Source of the DNA: Burkholderiales bacterium
Lineage (GTDB): Bacteria; Pseudomonadota; Gammaproteobacteria; Burkholderiales; Burkholderiaceae_C
Assembly (NCBI GenBank): GCA_947446855.1
Contig: CANFIH010000013.1
Span: 1-44,592 of the forward strand
Direction: 5' to 3'
Length of the DNA stretch: 44,592 nucleotides
The notes under the pieces are model-generated. The model was not told the origin of the DNA. It worked only from the letters and a program-made list of their open reading frames with translations, and made no database searches. Positions 9,200 to 38,380 of this stretch are shown here, piece after piece. How positions within the stretch are numbered: position 1 is the stretch's first letter; each line of letters opens with the position of its first letter. A program made the translations under genes and the position numbers.

Positions 9200-9215
9200 T
9201 GGCATGGACTGTGCA
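9200..9215 (+). promoter_or_regulatory. Candidate sigma54 promoter of the HiPIP-ApbE unit
   Basis: The bases read TGGCATGGACTGTGCA, which differ from the sigma54 consensus TGGCACG-N4-TTGCA at two defined positions and keep GG-N10-GC exactly (GG 9201-9202, GC 9213-9214). The predicted start is near 9226, 42 nt before the HiPIP ATG. A sigma54 activator is encoded nearby at 13237-14613. Seen by eye; not tested against a matrix. Confidence 0.55.
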
Positions 9216-9267
9216 GAAGAAGCTGCGGTCCATTCGACCTTGTCTTCACTTTTTTGGAATGTTTCAA

Positions 9268-9543
9268 ATGCAAAAGAATCAAATCTATACCCGTCGTGGC
9301 TTGGTGAAAATCGGCCTGTCCGGCCTGGCGATGATCCCCGTGCTGGCCCTGGCCACCAAAAACGATGCCATGCGCGCCGGCACCAAATACCAGACCCACC
9401 CGGAAGGCGACAAGCAATGTTCGCTGTGCGCGCAATTCATTCCCGGCAAAGATGCCAAGGACCTGGGTGGCTGCAAGATTTTCCCGGGTGACACCGAAGT
9501 GCTGCCCACCGGCTATTGCATCACCTGGTCGAAAAAGGCCTGA
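9268..9543 (+). CDS. High-potential iron-sulfur protein (HiPIP) with Tat signal
   Basis: A 91-residue exported protein. The N-terminus has a twin-arginine signal (YTRRGLVKIGLSG) followed by a hydrophobic run and ALAT. The mature part is about 60 residues with four cysteines in HiPIP order: CSLC, then GGCKIFPG, then GYCITW, which bind one cubane [4Fe-4S] cluster at high potential in the periplasm. HiPIPs carry electrons between cytochrome complexes and reductases or oxidases, and some act in Fe(II) oxidation chains. It is next to the cytochrome locus and has its own sigma54-like promoter, so it is a probable periplasmic carrier for that system. An ATG at 9259 is a possible alternative start. 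Confidence 0.92.
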   Translation: MQKNQIYTRRGLVKIGLSGLAMIPVLALATKNDAMRAGTKYQTHPEGDKQCSLCAQFIPGKDAKDLGGCKIFPGDTEVLPTGYCITWSKKA

Positions 9544-9578
9544 GCCGGCCGGCTGCTGTTCACCCTGAATCGGTCAGC

Positions 9579-9601
9579 CCGGCAGCGGTTGCCGCTGCCG
9601 G
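9579..9601 (+). terminator. Strong hairpin between HiPIP and apbE
   Basis: A perfect 10-bp stem CCGGCAGCGG / CCGCTGCCGG with a 3-nt TTG loop lies 36 nt after the HiPIP stop. No T-run follows, so it may be a weak or Rho-assisted terminator, or an mRNA-stabilising stem that keeps HiPIP transcript levels above those of apbE. Confidence 0.45.
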
Positions 9602-9620
9602 CCTGCAGCGACAATGGCCC

Positions 9621-10526
9621 ATGCCCGTTTTCAAGCTGTTTTTCACGGCCATGGCCAGCCGCTGCGAGATCTGTCTGGCCGCCGCGGACGCGGTGGCAGC
9701 GCAGAGCCTGGCGCAGTCGGCCGTCGACGAAGTGCTGCGCATAGAAGCCACCTACTCGCGCTATCGCCCGGACAGCGTGCTGTGCGGCATCAACGCCCAG
9801 GCCGGACGGGACTGGGTGACCTGCGATGACGAAACCCTGCACCTGCTGCATATCGCCGCCAGCCTTTTTGACCGGAGTGGCGGTCTGTTTGATGCCACCT
9901 CGGGGGTGCTGCGCCGCGCCTGGCATGCGCAGCAAACGCAGGCACCCTTGCCCGCCGCCCTGCAGGACCTCTGCGCCCTGGTCGGTTGGCCTGGCGTGCA
10001 ACGTCGGGGGCGGCAGGTGCGTCTGGCCCGCGCCGGCATGGAGCTGGACTTTGGCGGCTTTGGCAAAGAGTACGCCGCCGACCAGGCCGCCGGCGTTTTG
10101 CAAGCGCAGGGTGTGCGCCACGCCTATGTCAATCTCGGGGGGGACATCCGGGCCATCGGTCCGCACCCGGACGGCCAGGCCTGGTCCATCGGCATCCAGG
10201 ACCCGCAACACCCCGGGCGTCTGATCGCCAGCCTGCGCCTGGCCGAAGGGGGTTTGGCAACCAGCGGGGATTACGAGCGCTTCCTCGCGCTGGAAGGCCG
10301 CCGCTACGGCCACATCCTGGATCCGCACAGCGGCCAGCCGGTGGCGTTCTGGCGCAGCGCCAGTGTGCTCGCAGACACGGCCCTGGAAGCCGGTGCGCTG
10401 GCCACCATCGCCATGCTCCAGCAAGCGCAGGCCCCGGCCTTTCTGCAGGAGCAGGGGGTGCAATACCTGCTGGTGGACCAGGCCGGTGTGTTGCACGGCA
10501 ACCCGCAGGCCAAGCTGCCGGCTTAG
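9621..10526 (+). CDS. apbE: ApbE-like FAD:protein FMN transferase
   Basis: A 301-residue ApbE family protein, which moves FMN from FAD to a Thr/Ser of target proteins in a Mg2+-dependent reaction. Typical blocks are SRYRPDSVL.GIN near residue 47, GGLFDATSGVL near residue 90, LDFGGFGKEYAAD near residue 145 (conserved GG.GKG.a.D region), NLGGDIRAIG near residue 172 and ATSGDYERF near residue 214. Most ApbE proteins have a signal or lipoprotein leader; here the catalytic domain begins within the first ten residues, so it may be cytosolic. No clear FMN-binding partner domain is seen in the window, so its target lies elsewhere or is unrecognised. It follows the HiPIP gene on the same strand. Confidence 0.88.
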   Translation: MPVFKLFFTAMASRCEICLAAADAVAAQSLAQSAVDEVLRIEATYSRYRPDSVLCGINAQAGRDWVTCDDETLHLLHIAASLFDRSGGLFDATSGVLRRAWHAQQTQAPLPAALQDLCALVGWPGVQRRGRQVRLARAGMELDFGGFGKEYAADQAAGVLQAQGVRHAYVNLGGDIRAIGPHPDGQAWSIGIQDPQHPGRLIASLRLAEGGLATSGDYERFLALEGRRYGHILDPHSGQPVAFWRSASVLADTALEAGALATIAMLQQAQAPAFLQEQGVQYLLVDQAGVLHGNPQAKLPA

Positions 10527-10581: not shown

Positions 10582-11799
10582 TTAGGGTGCGGTCAGATGG
10601 GCCACCCCGCCAAAGCTGCCCACCCACAGATCACCGGCCGCACCGGCCACCATGGAGAACACGCTGTTGGAGAACAGGCCCTGCTCGGTGCTCAGGACCA
10701 CAAACCTGTCGCCGTCCCGGCGCGCCAGGCCGTTGTTGGTGCCTATCCACAGGCGGCCCGCCGGGTCCTGGTAAAGCATGAAGACATGGTTGCCGGGCAG
10801 GCCGTCGGCCACCGTGTAATTGCGCCAGCTCTTGCCATCAAAGCGGGCCAGGCCGCCGCCCCAGGTGCCGCACCACACGGCGCCGTCGCGGTCCACCTGC
10901 AGCGCAATGATGTAGTTGGGGTTGTAGGCCACCGACACGCCCTGCAGGCCCATCTCTTCCTTCTGCTTGGCGTGGTGGCTGGAGACCTGCGCCGGGTCGG
11001 AGTTGAACTTGATGTCGTCCTTGACCTTTTCAAACGGCGCGCCCAGGCCTTTGGCGTGGTTCCAGTTGTCCCATTGGCCGTTCGCAAAGCGCGCCAGCCC
11101 GCCTTCGGTGGCCAGCCAGATCTCGCCGTTCTTGCCTTCCGCCAGGCCATAGACCCAGTCATTGGGCAGGCCGCCGCGGGTGTTCTCCACGGTGAACAAA
11201 TCCCATTGGCTGCGCTCCTTCAGCGCGCCGCCGCGAATCCGGTTGGCGCCCGACCAGGTGGCGACCCAGACATCGCCATTGGCGGCCTTGAGCGTGCCGT
11301 AGACAAAGGCATCGCCCAGGCCTTCGGAGATGTTGAAGGTCTCCCACTTGTCGCTGCCCTGGTCGTACAGCGACATGCCGCCGCCATAGGTGCCCACCAG
11401 AATGCGGTCGCCCAGTTTGCTGACGTGGAACACGCCGTTGGACAGCAGCCCGTTGCGCGAGTCGAACAATCGGTATTCATCGCTGCGGGTGTCGTAGCGG
11501 ATCAGGCCACCGGAGGTGCCGACCCACAGGATTTTTCCATCCAGCAGCATGGACTTGACGTTGCGGTTGCCCACCCGGAAGTGGGTGAATTTGGCGTTCG
11601 GGTCCACCGTCACCTTGCCCTGCTGCTGCGGCCCGTTGCCGGCCTGCCCCAGGGCTGCGGACGGGGCTGCTGCGGCCGCTACGGCCGTTGCGGGTTGGGC
11701 TTGTTTGAGGCCCAGGTAGTAGGCGGCGCCCACCAGTCCGGCCACCACCACCAGCCCCGCGACGGCGATGGCAAGTTTGTTTTTACTGAAGTCCGGCAT
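10582..11799 (-). CDS. Membrane-anchored seven-bladed propeller protein (regulator-propeller repeats)
   Basis: A 405-residue protein: short N-terminus, one membrane helix at about residues 8-30, an Ala/Pro/Gln-rich linker to about residue 60, then a beta-propeller. Seven blade signatures of the two-component-regulator propeller type can be read: LWVGTSGGL, ILVGTYGGG, VWVATWSGA, IWLATEGGL, VWCGTWGGG, LWIGTNNGL and LWVGSFGGV. No kinase or other output domain follows, unlike the hybrid sensors where this repeat is best known, so it is probably a periplasmic scaffold or binding protein. It is the last gene of the long minus-strand array, 7 nt after its paralogue. The ATG at 11799 begins directly before the membrane helix. 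Confidence 0.85.
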   Translation of the reverse strand: MPDFSKNKLAIAVAGLVVVAGLVGAAYYLGLKQAQPATAVAAAAAPSAALGQAGNGPQQQGKVTVDPNAKFTHFRVGNRNVKSMLLDGKILWVGTSGGLIRYDTRSDEYRLFDSRNGLLSNGVFHVSKLGDRILVGTYGGGMSLYDQGSDKWETFNISEGLGDAFVYGTLKAANGDVWVATWSGANRIRGGALKERSQWDLFTVENTRGGLPNDWVYGLAEGKNGEIWLATEGGLARFANGQWDNWNHAKGLGAPFEKVKDDIKFNSDPAQVSSHHAKQKEEMGLQGVSVAYNPNYIIALQVDRDGAVWCGTWGGGLARFDGKSWRNYTVADGLPGNHVFMLYQDPAGRLWIGTNNGLARRDGDRFVVLSTEQGLFSNSVFSMVAGAAGDLWVGSFGGVAHLTAP

Positions 11800-11806: not shown

Positions 11807-12889
11807 CTATTTTCTTTTCGTGAGGCCAATACGCGCGACGCCGCGTTTGGTGCCCGCCCAGATGTCGCCATTCGGGGCGACGGCCAGGGCATAAACATTG
11901 TTGTCGAGCAGGCCCTGGTGCAGGCTGATGCTGTGCCAGGTCTTGCCATTGAAGTGGCTCAGCCCGTTGCTGGTGCCAAACCACAGATCGCCTTTGGCGT
12001 CCTGCGCCATGCTGTAGACGATGTCACCGGCCAGGCCGTCTTTGGCCGTGTAGTTGGTCCACTGTTTGCCGTCAAAGCGGCTGACACCGCCGCCCCAGGT
12101 GCCGGCCCAGATCGACTGGTCGGCCGCCACCAGCACGCTGAACACGTAGTTGGGGTTGTAGCTGGGTGCGCCGTCCCGCGTCAGCAGGCCCAGGTCGTGG
12201 CGTGAGCGGGTGCCCAGGCCGGTGTTGGGGCTGGCCAGCAGTTTGTTCGGGTTGTCCGCACCCAGGCCATCCTTGTGCGTCCAGGCGCGCCAGCTCTTGC
12301 CGTCAAACATGGAGACGCCGCCCTCGGTGCCAAACCAGACCTGATCGCGCGCATCCACCGCCAGGCCGTAGACCCATTCGTTGACCAGCTCCTTGACGTA
12401 GGTGCGGAACTTCAGGCTCTTCATGTCCACCACATTGGCGCCGGCCCAGGTGCCGATCCAGAGGTCGCCGTTCTTCTGGCTGGCAAAGGAATAGACCCAG
12501 TAGTCGGCCAGGCCGTGCAGGGGGAAATAGGTCTTCCATTTGCCATCGCGGTAGCGCGAGGCGCCACCGGCATTGGTGCCAAACCATTTGTAGCCCTGCT
12601 TGTCGATGGCGATGGCAAACACGTACTCATTGGCCAGCCCGTCGGCGCGGGTAAAGGTGTGGCGCGGCCTGCCCGAGGCCAGGTCGATCTCGTGCACGCC
12701 CTTGGAGGTGCCCACCCACAGCGCGCCCGCAGCGGGCTCGACGGCCAGGGCGCGCACATAGGTGTCGTCACCCACGTTAAAGGTCTCTATCACCTGGGGC
12801 AACGCGGCATCCGGCGCGGGAGGGGTCTGGGCCTGCACTGCCGCGCCACAAAGCAGCCACAGCAGGCTGCAGCAAAGGGCGCGCCTCAT
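11807..12889 (-). CDS. Secreted seven-bladed propeller protein (regulator-propeller repeats)
   Basis: A 360-residue protein with a cleavable signal peptide (residues 1-20, ending AVQA) and seven propeller signatures: LWVGTSKGV, KWFGTNAGG, LWIGTWAGA, VWFGTEGGV, IWAGTWGGG, LWFGTSNGL, IWAGTKRGV. It is a paralogue of the following gene; both share the unusual inserted SYNPNYVF/AYNPNYII blade entry. Lack of a membrane anchor suggests a soluble periplasmic or exported partner of the anchored copy. Its ATG overlaps the upstream cytochrome stop by 4 nt, so it is co-translated with the cytochrome. Function is unknown; protein-protein or cytochrome docking is inference. Confidence 0.85.
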   Translation of the reverse strand: MRRALCCSLLWLLCGAAVQAQTPPAPDAALPQVIETFNVGDDTYVRALAVEPAAGALWVGTSKGVHEIDLASGRPRHTFTRADGLANEYVFAIAIDKQGYKWFGTNAGGASRYRDGKWKTYFPLHGLADYWVYSFASQKNGDLWIGTWAGANVVDMKSLKFRTYVKELVNEWVYGLAVDARDQVWFGTEGGVSMFDGKSWRAWTHKDGLGADNPNKLLASPNTGLGTRSRHDLGLLTRDGAPSYNPNYVFSVLVAADQSIWAGTWGGGVSRFDGKQWTNYTAKDGLAGDIVYSMAQDAKGDLWFGTSNGLSHFNGKTWHSISLHQGLLDNNVYALAVAPNGDIWAGTKRGVARIGLTKRK

Positions 12890-13203
12890 TGCAGCGTCCG
12901 CATAAAGGCCACCACATCGAGGATCTCCCGGTCCGACAGAATGCCCCGGTACGCGGGGCTGGCGTTCTTGCCATTGCGTATGGAGGCCAGCAGGTCGGCG
13001 TCCGGGCGCAGCAGGCCTTCGCCCCGGTCGAAGTGGGGCGCGCCCGCCATCGTGCTGCGGCCGGTCTGGCCGTGGCAGATGGCGCAATGGCTGCCATACA
13101 GCTGGCGGCCCTTGTTCGCATCACCGGCCTGTGCCGCAGCGCAGGCCAGCAACGCAGGCAGCGCGGCCAGTGCGATTTTCCAAACCGGGGGGGGTGCTGT
13201 CAT
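12886..13203 (-). CDS. Monoheme class I-like cytochrome c lacking the usual Met ligand
   Basis: A 105-residue periplasmic protein with a signal peptide (cleavage near AAAQA-GDA) and one heme site, CAICHGQTG, near residue 41. The fold ends with LSDREILDVVAFMRTL, the class I C-terminal helix. The segment where class I cytochromes place the distal Met (usually NAMPAY) reads NASPAYRG, with Ser in place of Met, so heme coordination is probably altered or uses Met/His from STMAGAPHF. Between the response regulator (33-nt gap) and the propeller genes (4-nt overlap), it is part of the same unit. Confidence 0.87.
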   Translation of the reverse strand: MTAPPPVWKIALAALPALLACAAAQAGDANKGRQLYGSHCAICHGQTGRSTMAGAPHFDRGEGLLRPDADLLASIRNGKNASPAYRGILSDREILDVVAFMRTLQ

Positions 13204-13236: not shown

Positions 13237-14613
13237 CTAGGCGCGCAGCGCTTCAAATTCTTCGAGTTTTCGATACAGGCTGGACAAACCCAGTCCCAAC
13301 TTTTGTGCCGCCACGCGCCGGTCGCCATCGGCTTCCGCAATGGCCCGGCTGATCACTGTTTTTTCAAACCGCCGCACCTGGTCGCGCAGGCTTTCGCCGC
13401 TATCGAGCGCCAGCGCCGCCGCACCGGCGGGCGGGGCGCCGCGCGTGATCTGCACGCTCAAATCGGCACAGGTGATGCAGCCGTTGTCGGCCAGAATCAA
13501 GGCGCGGTCAATCACGTTTTCCATCTCCCGGATATTGCCCGGCCAGTCGTAGGCCAGCAGCATGTCGGTGGCCTGCGGGTCCATGCTGACCTCGCCGGTT
13601 TCGCAGTTGCGATCAGCCCCTCGTTTAAGCAAAAAATGCACCAGTCCGGGCAGGTCGGTCTGGCGCTGGCGCAGCGGCGGCGAGTGGATGTGAAACACGC
13701 TGAGGCGGAAGTACAGGTCTTCGCGAAACTTCCCTTCGGCCACCATTTTCGGCAGGTCGCGGTTGGTTGCGGCGACGATGCGTACATCGACCCGGCGCGA
13801 CTGTTCGCTGCCCACGGCGCGAATGGTCTTGTCCTCAATCACATGCAGCAACTTGACCTGCAGGGCCAGCGGCAACTCGCCGATTTCATCGAGAAACAGG
13901 GTGCCGTTTTCCGCCTCCAGAAACAGGCCTTTGCGGGCCTTGTCGGCCCCGGTGAAAGCGCCCTTGATGTGGCCGAACAATTCGCTCTCGATCAGGTTCT
14001 CCGGCAGGGCACCACAGTTCACCGGCACAAAGGGCGCATTGGCGCGCTTGCTCTGGTGGTGGATCTGCCGTGCGATCACGCCCTTGCCGGTGCCGCTTTC
14101 GCCGGTGACCAGCACCGTGCTGTCGGTGGGGGCCACCTTGGAGATCAGCCGGTCCACCGCGCGCATCTCGGGCGAGCTGAAGGTGAAGGGCGTCTCGCCC
14201 AGGCTGCGCACCAGTTTGCGCAGCACCCGGTTCTCGGCGCGCAGGCCGCGCATGTCCTGAATTTTGGCCAGCCGGTACAGCACCTCCTCCTTGCGCACCG
14301 GCTTGACCATGTAGTCGGAGGCGCCGGCCTGGATCGCCTCGATCGCGGTGTCCATGGAACCAAACGCCGTCATCATGATGAAGTTGGTATCCACGCCGGC
14401 TGCCAGCACGCGGCGCACCAGCTCGATGCCATCGATGTCGGGCATGCGGATGTCGCAGATCGCCACCTGCACATCGCCCTTGGAGAGGCGCTCAAAAGCC
14501 TCCTGGCCGTTTGGCGCCTGCAGCACGTCGTAGCCCGCCTTCAGCAGATTGGCCGCCACGATCTGGCGAATCGCGGCCTCGTCATCAATGACCATCACTT
14601 TGAGGGGTTTCAT
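13237..14613 (-). CDS. NtrC-family sigma54-dependent response regulator
   Basis: A 458-residue three-domain activator. Receiver: acidic pair D10-D11, phosphoacceptor D54 in CDIRMPD, Thr in MMTAFGS, Lys in YMVKPV. AAA+ domain: Walker A GESGTGKG, sigma54 loop GAFTGA (intact), Walker B LFLDEIGEL, and an arginine-finger region. C-terminus: Fis-type helix-turn-helix (RRVAAQKLGLGLSSLYRKLEEF). When phosphorylated it should bind upstream sites and drive sigma54 promoters. Its partner kinase is the upstream overlapping gene (4 nt). Four sigma54-like promoters in this window lie before electron-transfer genes, which makes those its likely regulon. Confidence 0.95.
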   Translation of the reverse strand: MKPLKVMVIDDEAAIRQIVAANLLKAGYDVLQAPNGQEAFERLSKGDVQVAICDIRMPDIDGIELVRRVLAAGVDTNFIMMTAFGSMDTAIEAIQAGASDYMVKPVRKEEVLYRLAKIQDMRGLRAENRVLRKLVRSLGETPFTFSSPEMRAVDRLISKVAPTDSTVLVTGESGTGKGVIARQIHHQSKRANAPFVPVNCGALPENLIESELFGHIKGAFTGADKARKGLFLEAENGTLFLDEIGELPLALQVKLLHVIEDKTIRAVGSEQSRRVDVRIVAATNRDLPKMVAEGKFREDLYFRLSVFHIHSPPLRQRQTDLPGLVHFLLKRGADRNCETGEVSMDPQATDMLLAYDWPGNIREMENVIDRALILADNGCITCADLSVQITRGAPPAGAAALALDSGESLRDQVRRFEKTVISRAIAEADGDRRVAAQKLGLGLSSLYRKLEEFEALRA

Positions 14614-15920
14614 ACGGCTGAGCCTGCTTGGGTGAGGAGGGTATCCAGCGGCAAGCGGACCTGCACTTGCGTGCCCACTTCCGGGGTTGATTGAATATCG
14701 ATGCTGCCTTGGTGCGCCTTGACGATGGAGTAGCACAGGGACAGGCCAAGCCCGGTGCCCTGGCCCACCATCTTGGTGGTGAAGAAGGCCTCGAACACAT
14801 GGCTCAGGGTTTGCGCGGTCATGCCGCAGCCGTTGTCGCTGACGCACATCCAGGCATGCCCGGCATCTGCGCCGGTCTCTATCAGGATGCGGGGCACGCG
14901 CCCGCCCACCGGGTGCAGGGCATCCATGGCATTGATCAGCAGGTTGATGATGAGCTGGGTCAACTGGTCTGCGGTGCCCTGGATGGCCGGCAGATGGGGG
15001 TCGAGTTCCAGTTGCAAGGTGATCGGCTCCAGGCGCTTGTCGTAGCGGATCAGCTGGGTGGTGCTGCGCACAATGGCGTTCAGGTCCAGCAGCTGCGCCT
15101 CGGCGCTGCTGGGCGCGGCAAACATGGAAATCTCCCGCGTGATGGCGGCCAGCCGTTTGGTTTGCGCCAGTATCAGTTCGGGGTGGCCGTCGCCTGCCAC
15201 CTCGAGCGCACCCAGACCCGAATCGCGCCGGTCCATCATGTCCTGCGCCACGCCGGAGATGGCCGCAATCGGGTTGCCGATCTCATGCGCGATGCCGGCC
15301 GCCAGGGTGCCGATGGCGGCCATTTTGTCCTTGTGAAAGTAGCGCTGGCGCTCCAGCGTCAAGTCCCTGGCGCTCTGGTCCAGCGTGTCGCCCATGCGTT
15401 TGACGGTGGACACCATGCGGCGGAAAAACAGCGCCAGGGCCCCGGCCAGCAGCAACAGGCCCAGCGCACCCAGCAGCACCATCGTTTGCATGGCCGATTG
15501 GCTCTGCGCGCGGTAATGCGCCGACAAGGCCTGGCGCTTGTCCCGCGCCGCAGCCAGTGTGCCTGGCCCCGCACCCGCCAAGGCCTGCAGCGCGGCATCG
15601 CGATCGGCCGGCTTGCCCTGAACGCTGAGCGCCGCCATGGTTTGGTAGGCCGATAGCTGGGCCTGCGACAAAAGGGCTTCCTCTTCCATGGCCGCTTGCA
15701 TGTGCTCGAAGTCCTGCAACAGTTGCTGCTTCTGGTGCAGGGCGAACAGCGCGGTGCCCAGTACGTAGCCCAGCAGCACCAGCAACACCAGCAAGCCCTT
15801 GGTGCCCACCGGGAGTACATAGGCGCGCTGGCCCGGCGCGCCAGCTTCGCTCGGCAGCGCCGGGCTGGTCTGGCCGGGAAACACAGACGCCCTGAACGCC
15901 AAGGGGTGGCGCCTCCTCAT
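14610..15920 (-). CDS. Sensor histidine kinase paired with the sigma54 regulator
   Basis: A 436-residue membrane kinase. Two membrane helices (about residues 37-57 and 165-185) bracket a roughly 105-residue periplasmic, mostly helical sensor region without a recognised ligand domain. Cytoplasmic part: H-box AAGIAHEIGNPIAAIS, N-box IINLLINAMDAL, G1 VSDNGCGM, F-box FEAFFTTK and G2 GQGTGLGLSL; all catalytic boxes are intact. It belongs to the NtrB/ZraS/DctB-like group that partners sigma54 regulators. It overlaps TlpA and the regulator by 4 nt each. The start at 15920 is set by the ATGA overlap. Confidence 0.94.
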   Translation of the reverse strand: MRRRHPLAFRASVFPGQTSPALPSEAGAPGQRAYVLPVGTKGLLVLLVLLGYVLGTALFALHQKQQLLQDFEHMQAAMEEEALLSQAQLSAYQTMAALSVQGKPADRDAALQALAGAGPGTLAAARDKRQALSAHYRAQSQSAMQTMVLLGALGLLLLAGALALFFRRMVSTVKRMGDTLDQSARDLTLERQRYFHKDKMAAIGTLAAGIAHEIGNPIAAISGVAQDMMDRRDSGLGALEVAGDGHPELILAQTKRLAAITREISMFAAPSSAEAQLLDLNAIVRSTTQLIRYDKRLEPITLQLELDPHLPAIQGTADQLTQLIINLLINAMDALHPVGGRVPRILIETGADAGHAWMCVSDNGCGMTAQTLSHVFEAFFTTKMVGQGTGLGLSLCYSIVKAHQGSIDIQSTPEVGTQVQVRLPLDTLLTQAGSAV

Positions 15921-24116: not shown

Positions 24117-24118
24117 GC

Positions 24119-27988: not shown

Positions 27989-28432
27989 CTACTTCGCGGG
28001 TTGCATCGGGGCCGGCGCGCCGGCTCCTGCCGGAGCAACCAGGGAGTTGGTGGTGCTGCCGTGCACCTGCGTCGGGGTGCCGGATTTGCCGGTGTGGCAG
28101 AGGTCGCAGTTTTCTACCGACCAGGCGATGTTGCCGTTGTGGCAGGCACCGCAGTACTGGCCGTCAATGATCTTGACCATATTGATTTCGTTGCCCCCGG
28201 CCTTGAACTTGAAGCCCAGGTCGGCATGGCACACCTTGCAGGCAAAGCGGATGCGGTGGAACCAGTGCGGGAACACGGCCGGGCGCATGCCGGCGGCATC
28301 GGCGTAGTTGTTGATGATGACATCGCCATACTCCGCGTGGGCGCCACGCATGGGGGCCAGACCGACCAGCAGGAGCAGCAGGACCAGCGCCCCTGATCGC
28401 AGGAGGACACCGGTTTTCATCAACGTCAGCAT
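27989..28432 (-). CDS. Triheme c7-type cytochrome (type A, copy 1)
   Basis: A 147-residue exported cytochrome: signal peptide ending GAHA-EYGD, then CKVCH, CGACH and CDLCH, with HWFHRIRF giving distal His. A Pro/Ala/Thr tail of about 25 residues follows the last heme. It is the paralogue of 24119-24505. The start is placed at ATG 28432 because AAAGGTGG lies 7 nt upstream; the open frame extends further but without a signal-peptide pattern, and ATG 28420 is also possible. A short AT-rich gap of 50 nt separates it from the beta-barrel gene. Confidence 0.92.
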   Translation of the reverse strand: MLTLMKTGVLLRSGALVLLLLLVGLAPMRGAHAEYGDVIINNYADAAGMRPAVFPHWFHRIRFACKVCHADLGFKFKAGGNEINMVKIIDGQYCGACHNGNIAWSVENCDLCHTGKSGTPTQVHGSTTNSLVAPAGAGAPAPMQPAK

Positions 28433-31550: not shown

Positions 31551-32410
31551 ACCGCGCTGCCGGTATTGGCGATGCGCAAGAAGGTGGTGTTGGTGGAGTG
31601 CGGGTCGTGGCAGCTGGCACATTCCACAAAGGCCTGTGCCCCGGCCAGCGAGCCGGGGACGACGGCGCCGCTGCGGTCCACCGCATCCGAGTCGGTGCGG
31701 GTGTAAAGCATCATGTCGGTCTTCTGCCGTCCGGCGGCTCCGGTCTCCACCCACCAGACCGACTGGCCGTTCAGGTTGGCGTAGCTCAGGCCTTTGAAGT
31801 CCGGGTCCTTGAGCGCGCCATCGGCAATGGGGCCCGCCGTGTAGGCGCCGCCGTTGGGCATGCCGCCTCCGTACTGGATGCCGATCGGGTGGTCGTTTTT
31901 CAGGTCCTTGCCGATATTGGTGATCAGTCCGGCCGCGATGCTGCCCGCCGTCTGGTTGGCACCGGTCCAGGCGCCGGCCAGGGCGGCTCCCCCGGCGTTG
32001 TAGCCGCCCGAGCCGGGCTGGTTGATCATCACGTTCATGGCCTGTGTGCCGTCGTGGCAGGACAGGCAGGCCAGCGACACCGAGCCCACCGGCGCCGTGG
32101 CGCCATCCAGGCTGGAGGTGCCCAGGCTGTTGTAGGTCTGGTAGGTGCCGGGGGCGGCCATCTTGCGGTTCCACAAGGGCACGGCAGCGGAGGAATCGGC
32201 GCCGTGCGGCGTGTGGCAGAACACGCAGAGTTCGGCGGTGCCATCAAACTTGTTGGCGCCAGAGACGGTGTTGGTGCTGCCCAGGTTGTGCTTGGTGTCG
32301 GCAATGCCTGCGGCAAAGGCCGCGTGGCTGGCCAACAGGCCCAGGGCCAGCAGGGCCAGGACGGTGCTCAGCACCTGCTGCAGTCCGAAAATCCATTTAT
32401 TGAGGTTCAT
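31526..32410 (-). CDS. OmcE-like tetraheme c-type cytochrome (candidate nanowire subunit)
   Basis: A 294-residue secreted cytochrome; signal peptide residues 1-34. Four CXXCH sites: CVFCHTPH (C62), CLSCHDGT, CASCHDPH and CLSCHIK at the C-terminus. The mature chain has exactly four other His: TKH41NL, H69 of TPH, NDHPIG, and DPH, one distal ligand per heme. Number and order match Geobacter OmcE, a four-heme protein known to polymerise into extracellular filaments. The start has a strong AGGAG 8 nt upstream. A sigma54-like promoter lies at 32484-32500. It is downstream of an NHL lipoprotein gene and upstream of a PPIase gene. Filament formation is inferred from the family, not visible. Confidence 0.92.
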   Translation of the reverse strand: MNLNKWIFGLQQVLSTVLALLALGLLASHAAFAAGIADTKHNLGSTNTVSGANKFDGTAELCVFCHTPHGADSSAAVPLWNRKMAAPGTYQTYNSLGTSSLDGATAPVGSVSLACLSCHDGTQAMNVMINQPGSGGYNAGGAALAGAWTGANQTAGSIAAGLITNIGKDLKNDHPIGIQYGGGMPNGGAYTAGPIADGALKDPDFKGLSYANLNGQSVWWVETGAAGRQKTDMMLYTRTDSDAVDRSGAVVPGSLAGAQAFVECASCHDPHSTNTTFLRIANTGSAVCLSCHIK

Positions 32411-32483: not shown

Positions 32484-32500
32484 ATGCAAGTTTGGCGCCA
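32484..32500 (-). promoter_or_regulatory. Candidate sigma54 promoter of the OmcE-like gene
   Basis: On the minus strand the bases read TGGCGCCAAACTTGCAT, with GG-N10-GC spacing exact and a perfect TTGCA -12 box; two defined positions differ from consensus. The predicted start is near 32474, 64 nt before the ATG at 32410. This would give the cytochrome gene a promoter separate from that of the upstream NHL lipoprotein. Confidence 0.6.
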
Positions 32501-32616: not shown

Positions 32617-33729
32617 TCAGCGTCGCACGGCAAAGCCGGCGTTGGCGGCCAGGCCGGCCGGGCGGTAGACATCGACCTTGCGAAAGAACTGGTCGGCGAT
32701 GTAGACGCGCCCGTCCCCGTCCAGCGCAATGCCCGAGGGCAACATGTATTTCGCCAGGCCATCGCGTTCGGAGCGGCTGCCCACGGACAGCAGCAATTCG
32801 CCCCCGGCTGTGAAGATCTGGAAATTGCCGAAAGCCGAGTCCACGATGTAGACATTGCCCTGTGCATCGGTGGCGGCTTCCTTGGGGCGCGAGAACTGTC
32901 CGCCCTGGCGTCCGATGGTGCCAAACGTACCCACAAAGCGGCCGTCGGGCTGGAAGATTTGCACCCGGAAGTTGCCGCCATCCACCACATACAGCAGCCC
33001 GTCCTTGCCAATCGTCACATCGCGCGGCAGGTTGAATTCACCGGGGCCGACGCCGCGCGTTCCGAAGTCCAGCAGGTGTTGGCCGGTGTGCGCATCGAGC
33101 ACGCGCACGCGGTGCTTGTCGCTGTCCACGCCACCGGTGTCCACCACATAGATGCGCTCGCCCTTGGCGTCGACCGCAATGCCCGAGGGGCGCAGAAAGG
33201 ACTGGCCGTCCCCGGCGAGCGTGCGCAGGTGCTTGCCAAGGCCATCAAAGACCTGGACCAGCCGCGCCGCGTTGTCCACCACGTAGACGTTGCCGGCACC
33301 ATCCACATCCAGGCCCATGGGCATGCGCAGTTGGCCCGCGCCTTCCTCGCCCAGCCGGAAAAAACGCTGGCCCGGAATGTCAAACACGGCCACGCTGCGC
33401 GAGCCGGTATCGCTGACGTAAACCCTGCCGTGGAACACGGCCACACCATAGGGCTTGCCCAGGCCCTCGGCGGTTTTGACGCCACCCAGCAGCATCTGCT
33501 TGAGGGCGGCGTTTTTGTCTTCCTTCTCGACATCGGCGCTGCTGTAGAGCGTGCGCTCGTAGTAAAAGCGCGGCTGCTCCGGCGCCGGCGGAAACACCGG
33601 GATGGCTTGCACCGTGGTCGCGGGCGGCGGTGCGACGGCGCAGGACGCCAGCAGCAACATGCCGCTGAGCTGCCAGACGCTGCGAAGGATTTTGGGCAAG
33701 AGGCTGGCAGTTTGCGTGGGATGGTTCAT
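32617..33729 (-). CDS. NHL-repeat (six-bladed propeller) lipoprotein, copy 1
   Basis: A 370-residue lipoprotein with lipobox MLLLASC (Cys30) and a Pro-rich spacer, then NHL blades: GRVYVSDTGSRSVAVFD, GNVYVVDNAARLVQVFD, ERIYVVDTGG with RVRVLD, GLLYVVDGGNFRVQIFQ, GNVYIVDSAFGNFQIFT and GRVYIADQFFRKVDVYR. It is the first gene of the minus-strand array and precedes the OmcE-like cytochrome, mirroring copy 2 before the 11-heme gene. The ATG at 33729 is used; the longer frame reaches 33807 but would place coding over the predicted sigma54 promoter. Its 5' leader would hold an 8-bp GC-rich stem. Confidence 0.88.
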   Translation of the reverse strand: MNHPTQTASLLPKILRSVWQLSGMLLLASCAVAPPPATTVQAIPVFPPAPEQPRFYYERTLYSSADVEKEDKNAALKQMLLGGVKTAEGLGKPYGVAVFHGRVYVSDTGSRSVAVFDIPGQRFFRLGEEGAGQLRMPMGLDVDGAGNVYVVDNAARLVQVFDGLGKHLRTLAGDGQSFLRPSGIAVDAKGERIYVVDTGGVDSDKHRVRVLDAHTGQHLLDFGTRGVGPGEFNLPRDVTIGKDGLLYVVDGGNFRVQIFQPDGRFVGTFGTIGRQGGQFSRPKEAATDAQGNVYIVDSAFGNFQIFTAGGELLLSVGSRSERDGLAKYMLPSGIALDGDGRVYIADQFFRKVDVYRPAGLAANAGFAVRR

Positions 33730-33784: not shown

Positions 33785-33800
33785 AGCAGAATTGGTGCCA
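33785..33800 (-). promoter_or_regulatory. Candidate sigma54 promoter of the minus-strand cytochrome array
   Basis: Minus-strand bases TGGCACCAATTCTGCT keep TGGCAC intact and GG-N10-GC exact; two defined positions differ from consensus. Predicted start near 33774, 45 nt before the NHL ATG at 33729. Confidence 0.6.
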
Positions 33801-33818: not shown

Positions 33819-33834
33819 GGGCACCAATCTTGCA
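33819..33834 (+). promoter_or_regulatory. Candidate sigma54 promoter (or operator half) facing the plus-strand cytochromes
   Basis: Bases GGGCACCAATCTTGCA keep GGCAC, a perfect TTGCA and GG-N10-GC. The predicted start, near 33845, is only about 3 nt before the ATG at 33848, so a transcript from it would be almost leaderless. Its GGCACCAAT is the inverted copy of ATTGGTGCC at 33791-33799, part of the opposite promoter, so it may instead be half of a shared palindromic site. Confidence 0.4.
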
Positions 33835-33847: not shown

Positions 33848-34948
33848 ATGAACCGTAACCCATTGCACGGCCTGTGTGTATTCGCTCCCGCTGCCCGGCT
33901 GCTTGGCCGGGCTTGTCTGTGGCTGTTGTGCAGCCTGGGCTGGCTGCTGCCGGCACATGCCGCAGGCGCGCCGCAAGGCGACGCTGCGCGCCTGTTTGCC
34001 AGCTATTGCTCGGTTTGCCATGGTGAAAAAGGCGATGGCAAAAGCCGCGCCCAGAACAGCCTGAACCCGCCGCCGCGCGATTTCACCAGCACCCCCGCCG
34101 AGCGCTTGTCGCGCAGCCAGATGATCGCGGCCGTCACCCACGGCAAGCCCGGCACCGCCATGGCGGCCTGGCAGACGCAGCTCCAGCCGCAGCAGATTGA
34201 AGCGCTGGTGGACTATGTGCGCAGCAGCTTCATGCCCGCGCCCGTGGTGACGCAAAGCAGCCGGGGCCGCCAGGTGTTCAGTAAAAACTGCGCGGTCTGC
34301 CATGGCGAGCAGGGCGACGGCCGAAGCCGCGCCCAGACCAGCCTGAACCCGCCGCCGCGTGACTTCACGGCGGCCGCCGCCCGCACCGAATTGAGCGCGC
34401 AGCGCATGCTCACCTCGGTCACCTTCGGCCGGGCCGACACCGCCATGGCCGGCTTCAAAAACCGCTTGAGCGCCGAGGACATCCGCGCCGTGGTGGCCTT
34501 TATCCGCGCCGACTTCATGGGCCTGGGGCCGGTGGCCGATGGCGCGGCGGGCCCGACCGCCAAACCGGCGGCAGTGGCACTGTCTGCCCAGGCCAAGCCG
34601 CTGGCCGTGAACATGGCCGCGCCCATGCCCATGGGGCTCAAGGGAGATGTGGAGAAGGGCGCTGCCTTTTACCTCGGCAACTGCGCCACCTGCCACGGCA
34701 AGAGCGGTGACGGCCGCGGGCCGCGCGCCTACTTCATCAACCCCAAGCCGCGCAACTTTTTGCACTCGGCCTCGCGCCAGGAGTTCAACCGCGTCAAGCT
34801 GTTTGAGATGATTTCGAATGGCGAGCGGGGCACCGAAATGCCGGCCTGGAAGCAGGTGCTGAGCCCGCAGGAAATCGCCAACGTGGCCGAGTTTGTATTC
34901 CAACGGTTTATCCAGGCCGAGACCGATACCGCCAAAGCGGCCCCGTGA
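33848..34948 (+). CDS. Triheme cytochrome c made of three tandem class I domains
   Basis: A 366-residue exported protein: signal peptide ending PAHA-AG, then three similar cytochrome c domains of about 95-110 residues. Heme sites are CSVCHGEKGDG, CAVCHGEQGDG and CATCHGKSGDG; each is followed by an NPPPRDF or NPKPRNF block and a Met ligand (GTAMAAW, DTAMAGF, GTEMPAW). An Ala/Pro-rich spacer of about 45 residues separates domains two and three. It likely shuttles electrons in the periplasm between the quinone pool or membrane complexes and the multiheme system. It diverges from the NHL lipoprotein gene and is coupled to the next cytochrome gene by TGATG. Confidence 0.9.
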   Translation: MNRNPLHGLCVFAPAARLLGRACLWLLCSLGWLLPAHAAGAPQGDAARLFASYCSVCHGEKGDGKSRAQNSLNPPPRDFTSTPAERLSRSQMIAAVTHGKPGTAMAAWQTQLQPQQIEALVDYVRSSFMPAPVVTQSSRGRQVFSKNCAVCHGEQGDGRSRAQTSLNPPPRDFTAAAARTELSAQRMLTSVTFGRADTAMAGFKNRLSAEDIRAVVAFIRADFMGLGPVADGAAGPTAKPAAVALSAQAKPLAVNMAAPMPMGLKGDVEKGAAFYLGNCATCHGKSGDGRGPRAYFINPKPRNFLHSASRQEFNRVKLFEMISNGERGTEMPAWKQVLSPQEIANVAEFVFQRFIQAETDTAKAAP

Positions 34949-36018
34949 TGCGAAGCGGCTTCAGCGTCCTGCTGCTGCTGTCCCTGGGCGCCTGCTCAGA
35001 GCGGCAGCCACCGGCCTTGCCCGCCGCCCGCGTGCTGCAGGCGCCGGCGACCGGCAGTGCCACGCATGAGCAGGGGCGGCGCATCTACAACTTCCGCTGT
35101 TATTTTTGCCACGGCTATTCCGGCGATGGGCAGACGCTGGCCAGCACCTATCTGCAACCCAAGCCGCGCAATTTTCTGGCCACCGCCACAGACCAGCTCA
35201 GCGTGGCGCAGATGCGCGAGGCCGTCACCCATGGCCGGCCCGGCAGCGCCATGCAGGGCTTTGCCACTGTGCTCAGCACCGCGGAGGTGAACGCCGTGGT
35301 CGACTTTGTGCGCCAGGAATTCATGGTGGCCAAGGCCGTCAACACCCGCTACCACACGCCCGAGAACGGCTGGCCGCAGCACCAGCGCTACGCCGCTGCT
35401 TTTCCATTTGCCCGCGGCGAACTCCCGCTGGACAGCCCCCCCGAAACGCTGACGCCGGAGCAGCGCGCCGGGCGGCGCCTGTTCATGGCGACTTGTGTGA
35501 GCTGCCACGACCGGGCCCGGGTGCGCGATGCCGGCGCGCCCTGGGAAGCGCAGGCCCTGTCCTACCCGCGCAATGGTTTTGTGCCGGGAGACGCGCAGCA
35601 GGTGGACACGGTCTCGGGGGCCTCGCCCTACCACTTGCATGACCAGGCGCCGCAACTCGTGGCGCTGTCGGAGCAGGAGTTGCAGGGGCAGACCCTGTTC
35701 CAGGAAAACTGCGCCTTCTGCCATGCGGCCGACGGCACCGGGCGCAACTGGATCGGCAGCTTTCTGCAGCCCCACCCGCGCGACCTGACCGCACCGGCCT
35801 TCATGCGCAGCATGACTGCCGGGCGTCTGGCGGGCGTGATCCGCGAGGGCCTGCCCGGCACCTCCATGCCGGCCTGGAAATCGGTGTTGTCCCCGCCGCA
35901 GATCCAGGCCCTGGTGGCCTATATTGCACGCGCCTTCCACCCGCTGGCGGCGGCGGCACCCGCTTCCAAGGAAAAATTGATAAAAACAACCCCGCAGAGC
36001 GTGGCCGCCTCGCCTTGA
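34948..36018 (+). CDS. Triheme cytochrome c lipoprotein
   Basis: A 356-residue membrane-anchored cytochrome with lipobox LLSLGAC in the first 20 residues. Three heme sites: CYFCHGYSGDG, CVSCHDRAR and CAFCHAADGTG. Domains one and three have the same layout as the preceding protein (QPKPRNF and GSAMQGF; QPHPRDL and GTSMPAW). The middle domain is different: after CVSCH it has SYPRNGF, SGASPYHLHDQAP and no obvious Met ligand. It starts at ATG 34948 overlapping the previous stop as TGATG; a GTG at 34945 is also in frame. It probably hands electrons at a membrane surface to the preceding soluble triheme protein. Confidence 0.9.
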   Translation: MRSGFSVLLLLSLGACSERQPPALPAARVLQAPATGSATHEQGRRIYNFRCYFCHGYSGDGQTLASTYLQPKPRNFLATATDQLSVAQMREAVTHGRPGSAMQGFATVLSTAEVNAVVDFVRQEFMVAKAVNTRYHTPENGWPQHQRYAAAFPFARGELPLDSPPETLTPEQRAGRRLFMATCVSCHDRARVRDAGAPWEAQALSYPRNGFVPGDAQQVDTVSGASPYHLHDQAPQLVALSEQELQGQTLFQENCAFCHAADGTGRNWIGSFLQPHPRDLTAPAFMRSMTAGRLAGVIREGLPGTSMPAWKSVLSPPQIQALVAYIARAFHPLAAAAPASKEKLIKTTPQSVAASP

Positions 36019-36070
36019 GTTATGGTTCAGGCAACAACATTCAACGCAACCAGAGAACATAGGTAACACC

Positions 36071-37771
36071 ATGCGTGCTTTGGCGCTCCCTGATTTTTTG
36101 CGGCCCGGCGCTTCAGGGCCGCCCGCACAGCAGCCCGGAGGCGGTTTCCGGCTGATGCGTTACGTCGTGGTCACGAGCGTGATCGCCCTGGTGTTCTTTG
36201 TGCTGCTGATGTACTTCACGGAGCATCTGGAGGAGTCGTTCTTTGCGGAAATGCAGCGCGACCAACTGACCTTTTTTGAGGAAGCGCAGCATGGCTTCAT
36301 GCGCGAGCATGACCAGACCCGCCAGGCTGAGATCCTCAAGGTGCACGAGGCCGGCAACGTCAACCTGGCCCATGTGTTTGCCAACATGCTGTGGACGCAG
36401 ACCCTTTCCCCGTTTGTGCAAAAAGCGCAGGCCGTGCCGATCGAACACTGCCGCGCCCTGGCCGCAACCCAGGCTGCGGCCCCCATGCCGGCCGAACCAC
36501 AAGCCTGTTTTGCCAAGGTGCGCCAGGCGCTCATGGCCTTGCCGCGCTTTGCGCAGATCGATGCCACGGTGCGCGCCACCATGCGCGGGAGCAGCGTCTT
36601 CAAGATCAAGGTGTTCGATACCCGGGGGCTGACCGTCTACTCCTCGGAGAACGCGCAGGTGGGGGAGGACAAGGCCGCGAACCAGGGCTGGAAAACAGCT
36701 GCCGGCGGCCAAACCGCCAGCGAGCTCACGCACCGCGAGCGCTTCAGCGCTTTTGAGGGCGTGGTGGAAGACCGCGACCTGATTTCCAGCTACATCCCCA
36801 TCCGGGGCGAGGGCCGGGAGGTGGTGGGTGTGTTTGAGATTTACGCCGACGCCACCCCGTTTCTGAAGGCGTCTGACGAGGCCTCCGCGCTGATGGCACA
36901 GCGCATTGCCGATAACCGCACCACGGCCAGCCTGTCTGCCAGAAAGAACATGGACCACATCACGGTGAACAACGCGTACGCCCAAACCATTTCGGCTGCG
37001 CTCTTTGCCCTGTTCTATGCCGCCTTGCTGGTGATCGTGTTCAATGGCCAGCGCATCCTGGACCAGCATGTGCTCGCCCACGAGCAGTCCAGCGAGCGCG
37101 AACGCCTGTGGTACCGGGAAAAGATGACGGCCCTGGCCACCATGGCGGCCAACGTGTCGCACGAAGTGGGCAACCCCCTGGCCACGATATCGGCCCTGGC
37201 GCAGGACATGCAGGGTGAGCAGCGACCGCACGACGGCAGCCGTTGCCGACCCAGCATGATCCTGGAGCAGACCGATCGCATCGCCCACATGACGCGCCAG
37301 ATCGTCAATTTCGCCACGCTGCGCGACCAGGGGCCCGAGCCCGTCGATGTGAACCAGATGGTGCTGGCGGCCTGCGATTTTCTCGGTTTTGACCACCGCT
37401 TCCGCGCGGTGCAGATTGAAACCCGGCTCGCCGGCAACCTGCCGGCGCGTGTGGTCACACCGGACCACCTCAGCGAAGCGCTGATGGTGATCTTGCAGCG
37501 CTGCCTGGAGAAGAGCCTGCAAAGCCCGGCGGCGCAGCAGCGCCTGCTGGTGGCCACCCGCGAAGAGGACCAGGCGGTGCGTATCCGTGTGGACTTTGAA
37601 GCGCCACCCAAGCCGCCCGCGTCCGGCAGGAAAAGCGCGCTGCCGGACCACCTGTTCAAGCTGGCACAGCGCCGCGTGCACGAGATGGGGGGCACGCTGC
37701 TGTCCGGCCGGACGATGGTCGAGATCAGCTTGCCCGCAGCCCATGCGGCAGATGCCGGCCATCGTTCGTAG
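36071..37771 (+). CDS. Sensor histidine kinase-like protein with degenerate ATP-binding domain
   Basis: A 566-residue membrane protein. Helices at about 28-50 and 310-332 bracket a large periplasmic sensor domain with a PAS/Cache-like ending (VFKIKVFDTRGLTVYSS, SSYIPIRGEGREVVGVFEIY). The dimerisation/phosphoacceptor helix is intact: MAANVSHEVGNPLATIS, H364, closely like the kinase at 14610-15920. The C-terminal domain keeps the fold outline but not the catalytic boxes: the N-box region reads LMVILQRCLEKS, no DxGxG (G1) is found, and no GxGLGL (G2); HEMGGTLLSG is all that remains. It should not bind ATP normally. It may be a receptor that works through the other kinase. No receiver gene is adjacent. 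Confidence 0.88.
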   Translation: MRALALPDFLRPGASGPPAQQPGGGFRLMRYVVVTSVIALVFFVLLMYFTEHLEESFFAEMQRDQLTFFEEAQHGFMREHDQTRQAEILKVHEAGNVNLAHVFANMLWTQTLSPFVQKAQAVPIEHCRALAATQAAAPMPAEPQACFAKVRQALMALPRFAQIDATVRATMRGSSVFKIKVFDTRGLTVYSSENAQVGEDKAANQGWKTAAGGQTASELTHRERFSAFEGVVEDRDLISSYIPIRGEGREVVGVFEIYADATPFLKASDEASALMAQRIADNRTTASLSARKNMDHITVNNAYAQTISAALFALFYAALLVIVFNGQRILDQHVLAHEQSSERERLWYREKMTALATMAANVSHEVGNPLATISALAQDMQGEQRPHDGSRCRPSMILEQTDRIAHMTRQIVNFATLRDQGPEPVDVNQMVLAACDFLGFDHRFRAVQIETRLAGNLPARVVTPDHLSEALMVILQRCLEKSLQSPAAQQRLLVATREEDQAVRIRVDFEAPPKPPASGRKSALPDHLFKLAQRRVHEMGGTLLSGRTMVEISLPAAHAADAGHRS

Positions 37772-37804
37772 ACCCTGGCGGCGTGCGGCGCAGTCCGGCG
37801 GGGT

Positions 37805-38380
37805 TTACTTTTTGAACGGTTCCTGGCTGGCGAAGAAATGGGCCACGGCATCCAGATCGGCAGGACTCAGGCCACGAAAGGCGTCGTCCATCAGGAACAC
37901 GAATTTGCGCTTGCCGGACACAAAGGCCCGCGTCTGCTCCTTCATGTAGTCGAGGTTCTGGCCCGCCAGCAGGGGCGCGTCGCGCTTGGATTCGCGCCCG
38001 TTGTCGGGGTGGCAATCGGCGCAGCGTTTTTTGTACCAGACCGCGCCTTTGGCCACCAGCGCCGCATCGGTCGACTGGGCCGGACGCGGGCTGCGGCTTG
38101 CCGCATAAAAATCGGCCACCGCCATCACATCTTCGGCGGTCCAACTTTTGGGAATGTGCTCGGGCACGGTGCTGACCCGTCCGCCATTGCCCAGGCGGCG
38201 AAGGTCATCTTCCAGGTAATCGGAGAGCTGGCCGTTCAGGTGCGGCGTCCTGGCTTGGGTGCTGACGCCCGTGTCGCCATGGCACTGGGCGCAGGCTTGG
38301 GTCAGGGTTTCAACGGGTGCTGCTAGCAGGCCGGTGCTGAGCACCGTGCAGAGCATCAAGGCCAAAGTTTTTATCAACAT
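37805..38380 (-). CDS. Diheme cytochrome c4-like protein
   Basis: A 191-residue periplasmic protein with signal peptide ending GLLA-AP and two class I heme domains: CAQCHGDTG near residue 30 and CADCHPDNG near residue 120. Each has the c4 arrangement of P.L.GQ..DY followed by a helix (LNGQLSDYLEDDLRRL, LAGQNLDYMKEQTRAF). The second domain has FLMDDAFRGLS near its Met position; the first has no clear MP motif, so its ligand is uncertain. It faces the kinase gene tail to tail. It is a likely periplasmic carrier to a terminal oxidase or reductase. Confidence 0.88.
   Translation of the reverse strand: MLIKTLALMLCTVLSTGLLAAPVETLTQACAQCHGDTGVSTQARTPHLNGQLSDYLEDDLRRLGNGGRVSTVPEHIPKSWTAEDVMAVADFYAASRSPRPAQSTDAALVAKGAVWYKKRCADCHPDNGRESKRDAPLLAGQNLDYMKEQTRAFVSGKRKFVFLMDDAFRGLSPADLDAVAHFFASQEPFKK

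Follow-up and report, generated by a model that had tools for sequence, protein, structure and literature searches.

An undecaheme electron-transfer (Uet) locus with OmcE-family cytochromes and putative sigma54 promoter elements in a Burkholderiales genome

A multiheme cytochrome locus at positions 9200 to 38380 was examined in a 44,592-nucleotide stretch of DNA (the window) from a Burkholderiales bacterium, contig CANFIH010000013.1, which is contig 13 of a 4.48 Mb metagenome-assembled genome (MAG; 86.93% complete, 6.49% contaminated). Judged by published gene descriptions, the locus is a member of the already named and widespread undecaheme electron transfer (Uet) system, which received its name in Tenderiales and has also been described from Gallionella and the Leptothrix group (PMC10734462, PMC13386937). 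Gene content, gene order, co-inheritance, homology to the wire-forming cytochrome OmcE and elements upstream of uetA suggest, with a probability of roughly 0.52, that a complete Uet system is encoded here, one that is inducible and would build an OmcE-type heme wire by the mechanism outlined below. An initial annotation, made from sequence alone, had proposed a self-contained extracellular electron-transfer locus with a new gene combination. The electron-transfer assignment is supported; the claim of novelty fails because the gene content matches the Uet cluster, and the idea of a new type of conduit was rejected. Uet has so far been put forward as a presumed route of iron oxidation or cathode use, by a hypothetical mechanism.

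Gene content, order and co-inheritance of the locus

A Gallionellaceae pangenome paper describes Uet as an undecaheme (UetJ), a tetraheme (UetA), trihemes (UetD, UetE and UetG), a peptidyl-prolyl isomerase (PPIase, UetB), NHL proteins (UetH and UetI) and a barrel (UetC), with an origin in Candidatus Tenderia (PMC10734462). A TPR-domain gene amid three trihemes is described in a 2017 Tenderia paper (PMC5371394), UetJ and its porin were reported from Leptothrix-group genomes (PMC13386937), and Uet is also covered in a review (PMC12575090). The Tel genes of the 2017 paper, which is without uet names, were assigned to uet letters here. In the window, the minus-strand run reads UetA, PPIase, barrel, c3a, c4a, hel1, hel2, c3b, c3c, NHL2, undecaheme. 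It comprises the tetraheme UetA (31526..32410, 4 CXXCH); the PpiC/SurA-like UetB (30543..31550; Rotamase 3.6e-17, SurA_N_3 6.4e-8); the putative outer-membrane barrel UetC (28483..30492); a triheme c7 cytochrome in the place of UetD (c3a, 27989..28432, 3 CXXCH; Cytochrome_C7 1.4e-14, TIGR04257 6.2e-18); a protein in the place of UetE with a monoheme and a triheme c7 domain (c4a, 26945..27979, 4 CXXCH; Cytochrome_CBB3 4.5e-16, Cytochrome_C7 1.1e-11); two putative helical scaffold proteins (hel1, 25977..26948; hel2, in the place of UetF, 25046..25969); two further triheme c7 cytochromes with 3 CXXCH each (c3b, 24502..25032, Cytochrome_C7 6.7e-11; c3c, 24119..24505, Cytochrome_C7 8.6e-15); the NHL lipoprotein NHL2 (23001..24116; NHL 5.5e-32); and UetJ (20353..23004, 11 CXXCH). 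On the same strand, NHL1 (32617..33729; NHL 3.6e-29) lies upstream of uetA, and ResB (19332..20306; ResB 8.2e-15), CcsA (18459..19277; Cytochrom_C_asm 8.6e-26), the COX1-TPR fusion oxTPR (16501..18462) and a TlpA/ResA-like thioredoxin with a CPPC motif (15917..16504; Redoxin 1.4e-19) follow UetJ. Both NHL proteins have a lipobox-like N-terminus by eye.

A six-frame scan found 40 CXXCH sites in the whole window, 37 of them inside ten locus proteins as first annotated, so that the count is not explained by chance. Pfam likewise confirmed the HiPIP, ApbE, two NHL proteins, two propellers, PPIase, ResB/CcsA/TlpA set and sigma54 activator named at the outset. The reported close packing also holds: of the 20 same-strand junctions between prop2 and NHL1, 14 are overlaps or leave no more than 15 nt at the chosen starts. 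The locus is nonetheless more than one operon, since a 206-nt gap between NHL1 and uetA interrupts the minus-strand run, cyc3x-cyc3y-HK2 is divergent on the plus strand, HiPIP-ApbE is also on the plus strand and the diheme gene is on the minus strand. The initial idea of inheritance as one system is supported by synteny, a second copy and co-varying identities. 'Self-contained' is loose: the locus has several promoter regions, its annotated genes include no recognisable quinone-level enzyme, and the genome carries two porin-cytochrome loci besides this one.

A c3c search of 399 genomes of the order gave matches in 21 at E <=1e-3 and in 14 (own genome included) at <=1e-42. Stretches from 15 other genomes, several of them fragments, have the same gene order where long enough; two of these (G184, G290) contain no oxTPR. 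A scan of species genomes returned at least 549 stretches encoding c3c relatives, triheme paralogues included, and most of the best 80 loci, which were kept, are syntenic with the window; co-inheritance holds in most relatives examined. Co-occurrence was counted around the c3c bait in the 50 of these 80 loci with at least 20,300 bases, using a 10 kb flank, which undercounts the outer genes. The inner genes were nearly constant: c3b was present in 50 loci, NHL2 and UetJ in 47 each, c3a and c4a in 46 each, UetA, PPIase, barrel, hel2, ResB and CcsA in 45 each, oxTPR in 43 and NHL1 in 42. Lower counts were obtained for hel1 (23), cyc3x (16), TlpA (13), HK1 (12), RR (7), cyc3y and HK2 (5 each), and cyc1 and the propellers (3 each). 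By this comparison ResB, CcsA and the TPR protein are part of the conserved locus. Identity matrices, tested in the 37 of 80 loci with all ten core genes, co-vary; UetA-UetJ gave r 0.67, permutations reached at most 0.13, and pairwise values ranged from 0.08 (c3a-CcsA) to 0.85 (PPIase-NHL2).

By mean identity the nearest loci are from Polaromonas, Rhodoferax and Oxalobacteraceae. In a Rhodoferax MAG (G440, L157-L159), a sister locus has counterparts of 26 of the 28 genes that were compared between HiPIP and an EF-hand gene of the window, both included; tblastn against its contig did not find the diheme gene, the EF-hand gene or the ten outer flanking genes tested. Within the genus the distribution of Uet is patchy as judged from homology matches: UetA-family proteins, either UetA or UetJ, were matched in 3 of 37 members with the own genome counted.

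Several observations from the relatives are recorded separately. In many relatives NHL1 or uetA is preceded by a second OmcE-like tetraheme gene (L157:4408-6368 and other loci), whose product diverges from UetA (~27-37% identity) and which is often found next to an NHL gene. In Kiloniellaceae MAGs L100, L134 and L151, UetJ, ResB, CcsA, oxTPR, TlpA, cyc1 and both propellers lie upstream of c3b-c3c. A triheme gene of a genus-mate MAG (L017:9114-9485) has an in-frame stop, either an assembly error or decay.

OmcE homology, the barrel and heme loading

UetA matched the OmcE filament protein (7TFS) at 1.5e-24 and a further cytochrome entry, 9YUQ, at 2.7e-27 by phmmer; a profile of 14 UetA orthologues improved these values to 1.3e-37 and 7.2e-37, respectively. 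Four histidines outside the CXXCH sites (H41, H69, H174 and H271) are invariant in all 14 orthologues. Across 58 orthologues, four CXXCH sites are present in 57 and three in one, and the motifs CHTPH (58/58), [ND]DHP (58/58), CHDPH (54/58) and an N-terminal His motif (53/58) are retained. The first third of UetJ (residues 34-239) also matched OmcE (7TFS, 8.6e-20). All 56 UetJ orthologues have 11 CXXCH sites, with CHTPH and CHDPH in 56 each, [ND]DHP in 51 and the N-terminal motif in 40. By these alignments UetA is an OmcE homologue with the heme-ligand pattern retained, and so is UetJ in its N-terminal third. One heme of OmcE is ligated by a histidine of the neighboring subunit (PMC9473688), and by analogy UetA would polymerize into a wire, which UetJ may cap. 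The OmcE filament has a helical rise of 34 A (PMC12954529). For OmcS wires, proteins of three kinds also encoded here, a PPIase, a propeller and a channel, have been proposed to serve folding, morphology and secretion (PMC13194489).

A model of UetC built from 40 sequences has 28 counted strands (pLDDT 85.4), consistent with the outer-membrane barrel of the initial annotation, on which Pfam is silent. UetC matched no NCBIfam family at 0.01, and a Pfam scan of 40 homologues gave two stray matches in one member each. Foldseek and VIA-align returned generic barrels only, with MtrB tied with many others. The position of the Uet TPR gene is occupied here by hel1 and hel2, divergent paralogues with 22% identity in alignment. 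Both are predicted to be helical and lack a Pfam TPR match; hel2 has no Pfam match at all, an all-helical model (pLDDT 86.7) and no significant Foldseek match (best E 0.048).

The gene after CcsA encodes a TPR protein. In the window it carries a fused COX1-like domain (COX1 5.9e-9 plus TPR; ba3 oxidase 5.1e-13 by profile), as do four of six aligned relatives; in the other two, TPR stands alone. Conserved in five fused sequences are the His of TM2, the first of the CuB His (GH) and H-x-H in TM10. The HH pair aligned to CuB ligands of the ba3 oxidase is absent in all five; three relatives have a single His nearby and the window none. With two of three CuB His missing, oxTPR is unlikely to be an oxidase, and a role as terminal oxidase was rejected for this protein, originally labelled 'oxidase-like'. 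We infer that oxTPR may instead be a heme-binding helper in cytochrome maturation. One other CcsA-like match was found in the genome, and it is distant (25% identity).

Promoter elements and outer genes

Sigma54-type -24/-12 elements were sought in the 200 nt upstream of each orthologue, with GG and GC required and up to two mismatches allowed; an orthologue whose gene was incomplete or on the minus strand was left out (58 of 80 UetA kept), and starts were picked by script. Shuffled controls kept base composition only for -24/-12, and for dyads preserved dinucleotides where this succeeded, with a plain shuffle as fallback. An element was found upstream of uetA in 51 of 58 orthologues, compared with 0/59 for the barrel, 1/79 for c3c, 1/56 for UetJ, 3/58 for PPIase and 0/71 for hel2. 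In the window it lies at 32485..32500 (minus strand, TGGCGCCAAACTTGCA, 2 mismatches, 90 nt upstream). Further upstream lies the dyad TTCYCR-N4-YGRGAA (TTCYCRNNNNYGRGAA), which 47 of 58 uetA orthologues carry with one mismatch or none (28 exact); shuffled sequences gave 0.7 on average (maximum 3), and six other gene sets one or two each; the uetA count is partly circular because the dyad was derived from 52 of the same upstream regions, whereas the other gene sets are independent. It lies upstream of -24 in 44 of the 51 promoter-bearing loci, in some as a pair, and in the window two tandem dyads are at 32575-32590 and 32595-32610 (1 mismatch each). The pattern of an NtrC-type sigma54 regulon, namely activator, -24/-12 element and upstream dyads, is thus apparently present at uetA, and the sigma54 regulation first proposed gains support from this comparison of uetA orthologues.

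The activator is encoded by RR, an NtrC-type response regulator (13237..14613, minus; receiver, Sigma54_activat 2.5e-71, Fis HTH), adjoining HK1 (14610..15920, minus; HATPase_c 8.8e-24, HisKA 4e-6). Of the two kinase-like sensors originally named, HK1 is a full kinase by its domains, while HK2 (36071..37771, plus) has HisKA only (1.5e-6). Since no HATPase domain was detected in it, HK2 may act as a partner in sensing and not as a kinase itself. HK2 follows two plus-strand cytochromes, each with 3 CXXCH and three Cytochrome_CBB3 stretches: cyc3x, with three class-I heme domains (33848..34948; 1.4e-40), and cyc3y, a triheme with a lipobox-like N-terminus (34948..36018; 1.7e-29). A candidate -24/-12 element of cyc3x (33819..33834, plus, GGGCACCAATCTTGCA, 2 mismatches) is only 29 nt from the start; near-consensus divergent sites are found before cyc3x in several loci and missing from others. 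A candidate element of NHL1 is at 33785..33800 (minus, TGGCACCAATTCTGCT, 2 mismatches), and such a site is present in 9 of 41 orthologues.

At the left end, the HiPIP iron-sulfur protein (9268..9543, plus; PF01355 8e-7) is 60% identical to a HiPIP in the sister locus. It is preceded by a candidate -24/-12 element (9200..9215, plus, TGGCATGGACTGTGCA, 2 mismatches, 68 nt upstream) and a candidate regulator-binding dyad (9041..9056, TTCCGGGATCCGGGAA, 1 mismatch to TTCYCRNNNNYGRGAA), 159 nt upstream of that element. The HiPIP gene of the sister locus likewise has an upstream one-mismatch dyad and a two-mismatch -24/-12 element (67 nt upstream). Common control of HiPIP is suggestive only, because one-mismatch dyads occur at chance level genome-wide. 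The window holds three dyads with at most one mismatch, two at uetA and one at HiPIP, and 14 with at most two (shuffle mean 9.8, maximum 16).

Next to HiPIP, the flavin transferase ApbE (9621..10526, plus; PF02424 1.4e-71) has a 60% identical copy at the opposite end of the sister locus. The idea that ApbE flavinylates cyc3y was rejected; SGAS is present in the window protein and absent there in nine of nine orthologues (three partial; one with TGAT elsewhere). Two propeller proteins, prop2 (10582..11799; Reg_prop 1e-26) and prop1 (11807..12889; Reg_prop 2.1e-28), and cyc1, a monoheme cytochrome c of 105 residues (12886..13203, 1 CXXCH; Cytochrome_CBB3 2.1e-13), are on the minus strand. The right end is a cytochrome c4-like diheme gene with an uncertain link to Uet (37805..38380, minus, 2 CXXCH; Cytochrome_CBB3 5.4e-12, two stretches). 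Beyond it, 38548-38994 encodes a small EF-hand protein with a sigma54-like site (TGGCGCAAGCCTTGCT) upstream, and a SAH riboswitch (44347-44436, plus; 53.4 bits, gathering score 37) lies near the contig end.

Proposed mechanism, alternatives and comparison with known systems

In the proposed mechanism, HK1, perhaps together with HK2, would sense a signal and phosphorylate RR, which would bind the dyads and activate sigma54 transcription of the uetA operon; the same regulator and sigma54 may also drive NHL1, cyc3x-cyc3y-HK2 and HiPIP. Exported apo-cytochromes would be held by the TPR protein while TlpA reduces their cysteines, after which ResB/CcsA would load heme. UetB would aid the folding of UetA, which would exit through the UetC barrel and polymerize outside the cell as an OmcE-type heme wire. 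UetJ, with its OmcE-like head and a 7-heme part, would join the wire to the outer membrane. In the periplasm, c7 trihemes arranged by the helical proteins would carry electrons, and class-I cytochromes and HiPIP would connect them to the inner membrane.

Several observations weigh against this mechanism or parts of it. Five loci (L087, L102, L133, L136 and L140, three of them named Aromatoleum) have no UetJ match and keep trihemes, NHL2, ResB/CcsA and TPR; in L087 and L136 the distance from NHL2 to ResB is ~145 nt. Conversely, full-flank loci L081, L100, L134, L135 and L151 have UetJ and trihemes with no UetA-PPIase-barrel nearby, and G252 lacks UetA, PPIase, barrel and c3a in 40 kb. Loci with only one of UetA and UetJ weaken the proposal that UetJ caps the wire. 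In a second uetA set, drawn partly from the same loci, -24/-12 elements were found in 6 of 13 at up to two mismatches, in three more at three mismatches and not in the remaining four. Genome-wide, one-mismatch dyads number 76 against 70 for a reversed control, a chance level, and exact dyads one (on contig C15) against two; none of 15 readable dyad sites outside the window has a sigma54 site nearby. MtrCAB sets are usual in reducers, and a full set is present in the same genome. In Tenderia, undecaheme and triheme genes showed no significant change with potential (PMC5371394).

The last two points concern the direction of electron flow, for which the genome gives mixed signals. Contig C16 (L177) encodes MtrC, MtrB and MtrA homologues over curated cut-offs and a further 9-heme protein, C37 (L178) a second DmsE-type decaheme beside an MtrB-like barrel below cut-off, and C73 the RuBisCO large subunit. 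With MtrCAB, a decaheme-barrel pair and RuBisCO in one genome, any direction assigned is tentative. That the locus instead serves electron discharge, i.e. respiration of Fe(III), Mn or an electrode, falls somewhat short of even odds in our judgment. OmcE and OmcS originate in a metal reducer (PMC9473688), undecaheme cytochromes have been credited also to Mn-reducing Dechloromonas (cited in PMC13264449), and the MtrCAB set points the same way. Against discharge, the carriers Tenderia, Gallionella and the Leptothrix group are electron-oxidizing lineages in the published accounts, RuBisCO is present, and Tenderia triheme genes were among the most highly expressed at a cathode (PMC5371394). Electron uptake is thus somewhat favored.

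A second alternative is a porin-cytochrome conduit without a polymer, as drawn in the literature, in which a multiheme cytochrome sits inside UetC and UetA is a discrete surface protein. The resemblance of UetC to generic barrels leaves export and conduit roles indistinguishable. However, the best solved relatives of UetA are OmcE, a known filament, and 9YUQ; UetC falls outside the MtrB/PioB model and the locus is without a DmsE-family decaheme; and UetA, PPIase and barrel stay together even in the UetJ-less loci L087, L136 and L140. We therefore regard the conduit as the less probable arrangement, though one to be taken seriously. The OmcE-type wire might be generalized to a view, which we hold less likely than not, of Uet as a dedicated OmcE-type nanowire factory, not a porin conduit, widespread in Beta- and Gammaproteobacteria; here PPIase and barrel would fold and export UetA, UetJ would cap and anchor the wire through its OmcE-like domain, the heme-loading module would include an oxidase-derived heme carrier lacking CuB, and the conserved sigma54 enhancer would be the switch.

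Four genus-mates lose collinearity with the window at both ends of the locus, near 8986 (8957 in one) on the left side and at 38962-38996 on the right side, and in G001 (largest contig read 3.76 Mb) the two flanks are ~156 kb apart. A simple empty site was not found among the relatives fetched, in which the flanks are on different contigs or far apart. Either the locus lies at a rearrangement point or the contig is chimeric there. A chimera at one or both ends, which would make the placement of a real locus an artefact, fits the loss of collinearity and the quality of the MAG but is unlikely given similar GC in locus and flanks (0.63-0.68), the match of both flanks to the same genus and the same gene order in an independent MAG.

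Tying UetA and the UetJ head to OmcE yields a structural model that can be tested beyond Geobacter, and the conserved enhancer and promoter could help to identify inducing conditions and additional members of the regulon. The system is approachable, as the UetA-to-CcsA core occurs in the named strains Sphaerotilus mobilis (L145), Dechloromonas hankyongensis (L111) and Ramlibacter alkalitolerans (L121).

Compared with published descriptions of Tenderia and Gallionella Uet, the locus is alike in tetraheme A, PPIase B, barrel C, c7 trihemes, a helical protein at F, NHL and undecaheme J, in the order that the published names imply. It differs from Tenderia in the extra monoheme domain of the E-like gene, the doubled helical gene and two trihemes after the helical genes, one c7 protein more than described. 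In place of the H and I pair, a single NHL gene precedes J and another lies upstream of uetA. Next to the core stand, in this locus, genes for heme attachment, a regulator, propellers, HiPIP and ApbE; Tenderia uet was compared by description only.

UetA, a putative filament protein of 294 residues, can be aligned with the 232-residue OmcE of the Geobacter sulfurreducens filament across the four heme sites, and four further His are common to both. The folding protein among the Geobacter OmcS companions (Osc) of Shen et al. 2025 is reportedly a prolyl isomerase. By description, Osc folding, secretion and morphology proteins stand beside the wire cytochrome as in Uet (PMC13194489). UetA is of the OmcE type, unlike OmcS, and OmcE and OmcS are without sequence similarity (PMC9473688).

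MtrCAB, MtoAB and PioAB share with Uet a barrel and multiheme cytochromes. The initial annotation was right that the locus departs from MtrCAB and PioAB, as it contains neither an MtrA-type decaheme nor an MtrB-family barrel, of which separate examples lie elsewhere in the genome; that departure is not new, being that of Uet. In an own-genome search with the MtrB/PioB model TIGR03509, matches were on C16 and C37 and none on the window contig, and with the MtrA/DmsE model TIGR03508 UetJ (51.1 bits) and UetA (25 bits) stayed below the cut-off of 192.2. PCC3 is alike in pairing a barrel with large cytochromes, but its periplasmic cytochrome has 21-27 hemes, while the largest cytochrome in the window has 11. 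Neither the OmcE link nor sigma54 control of Uet turned up in the literature searched, which did not include the founding Uet paper (Eddie et al. 2022) or the OmcE structure paper, and priority is not claimed. To the published picture of Uet the present comparison would add OmcE homology, a conserved promoter and dyad, a heme-loading module within the conserved locus, and a genomic setting with MtrCAB and RuBisCO.

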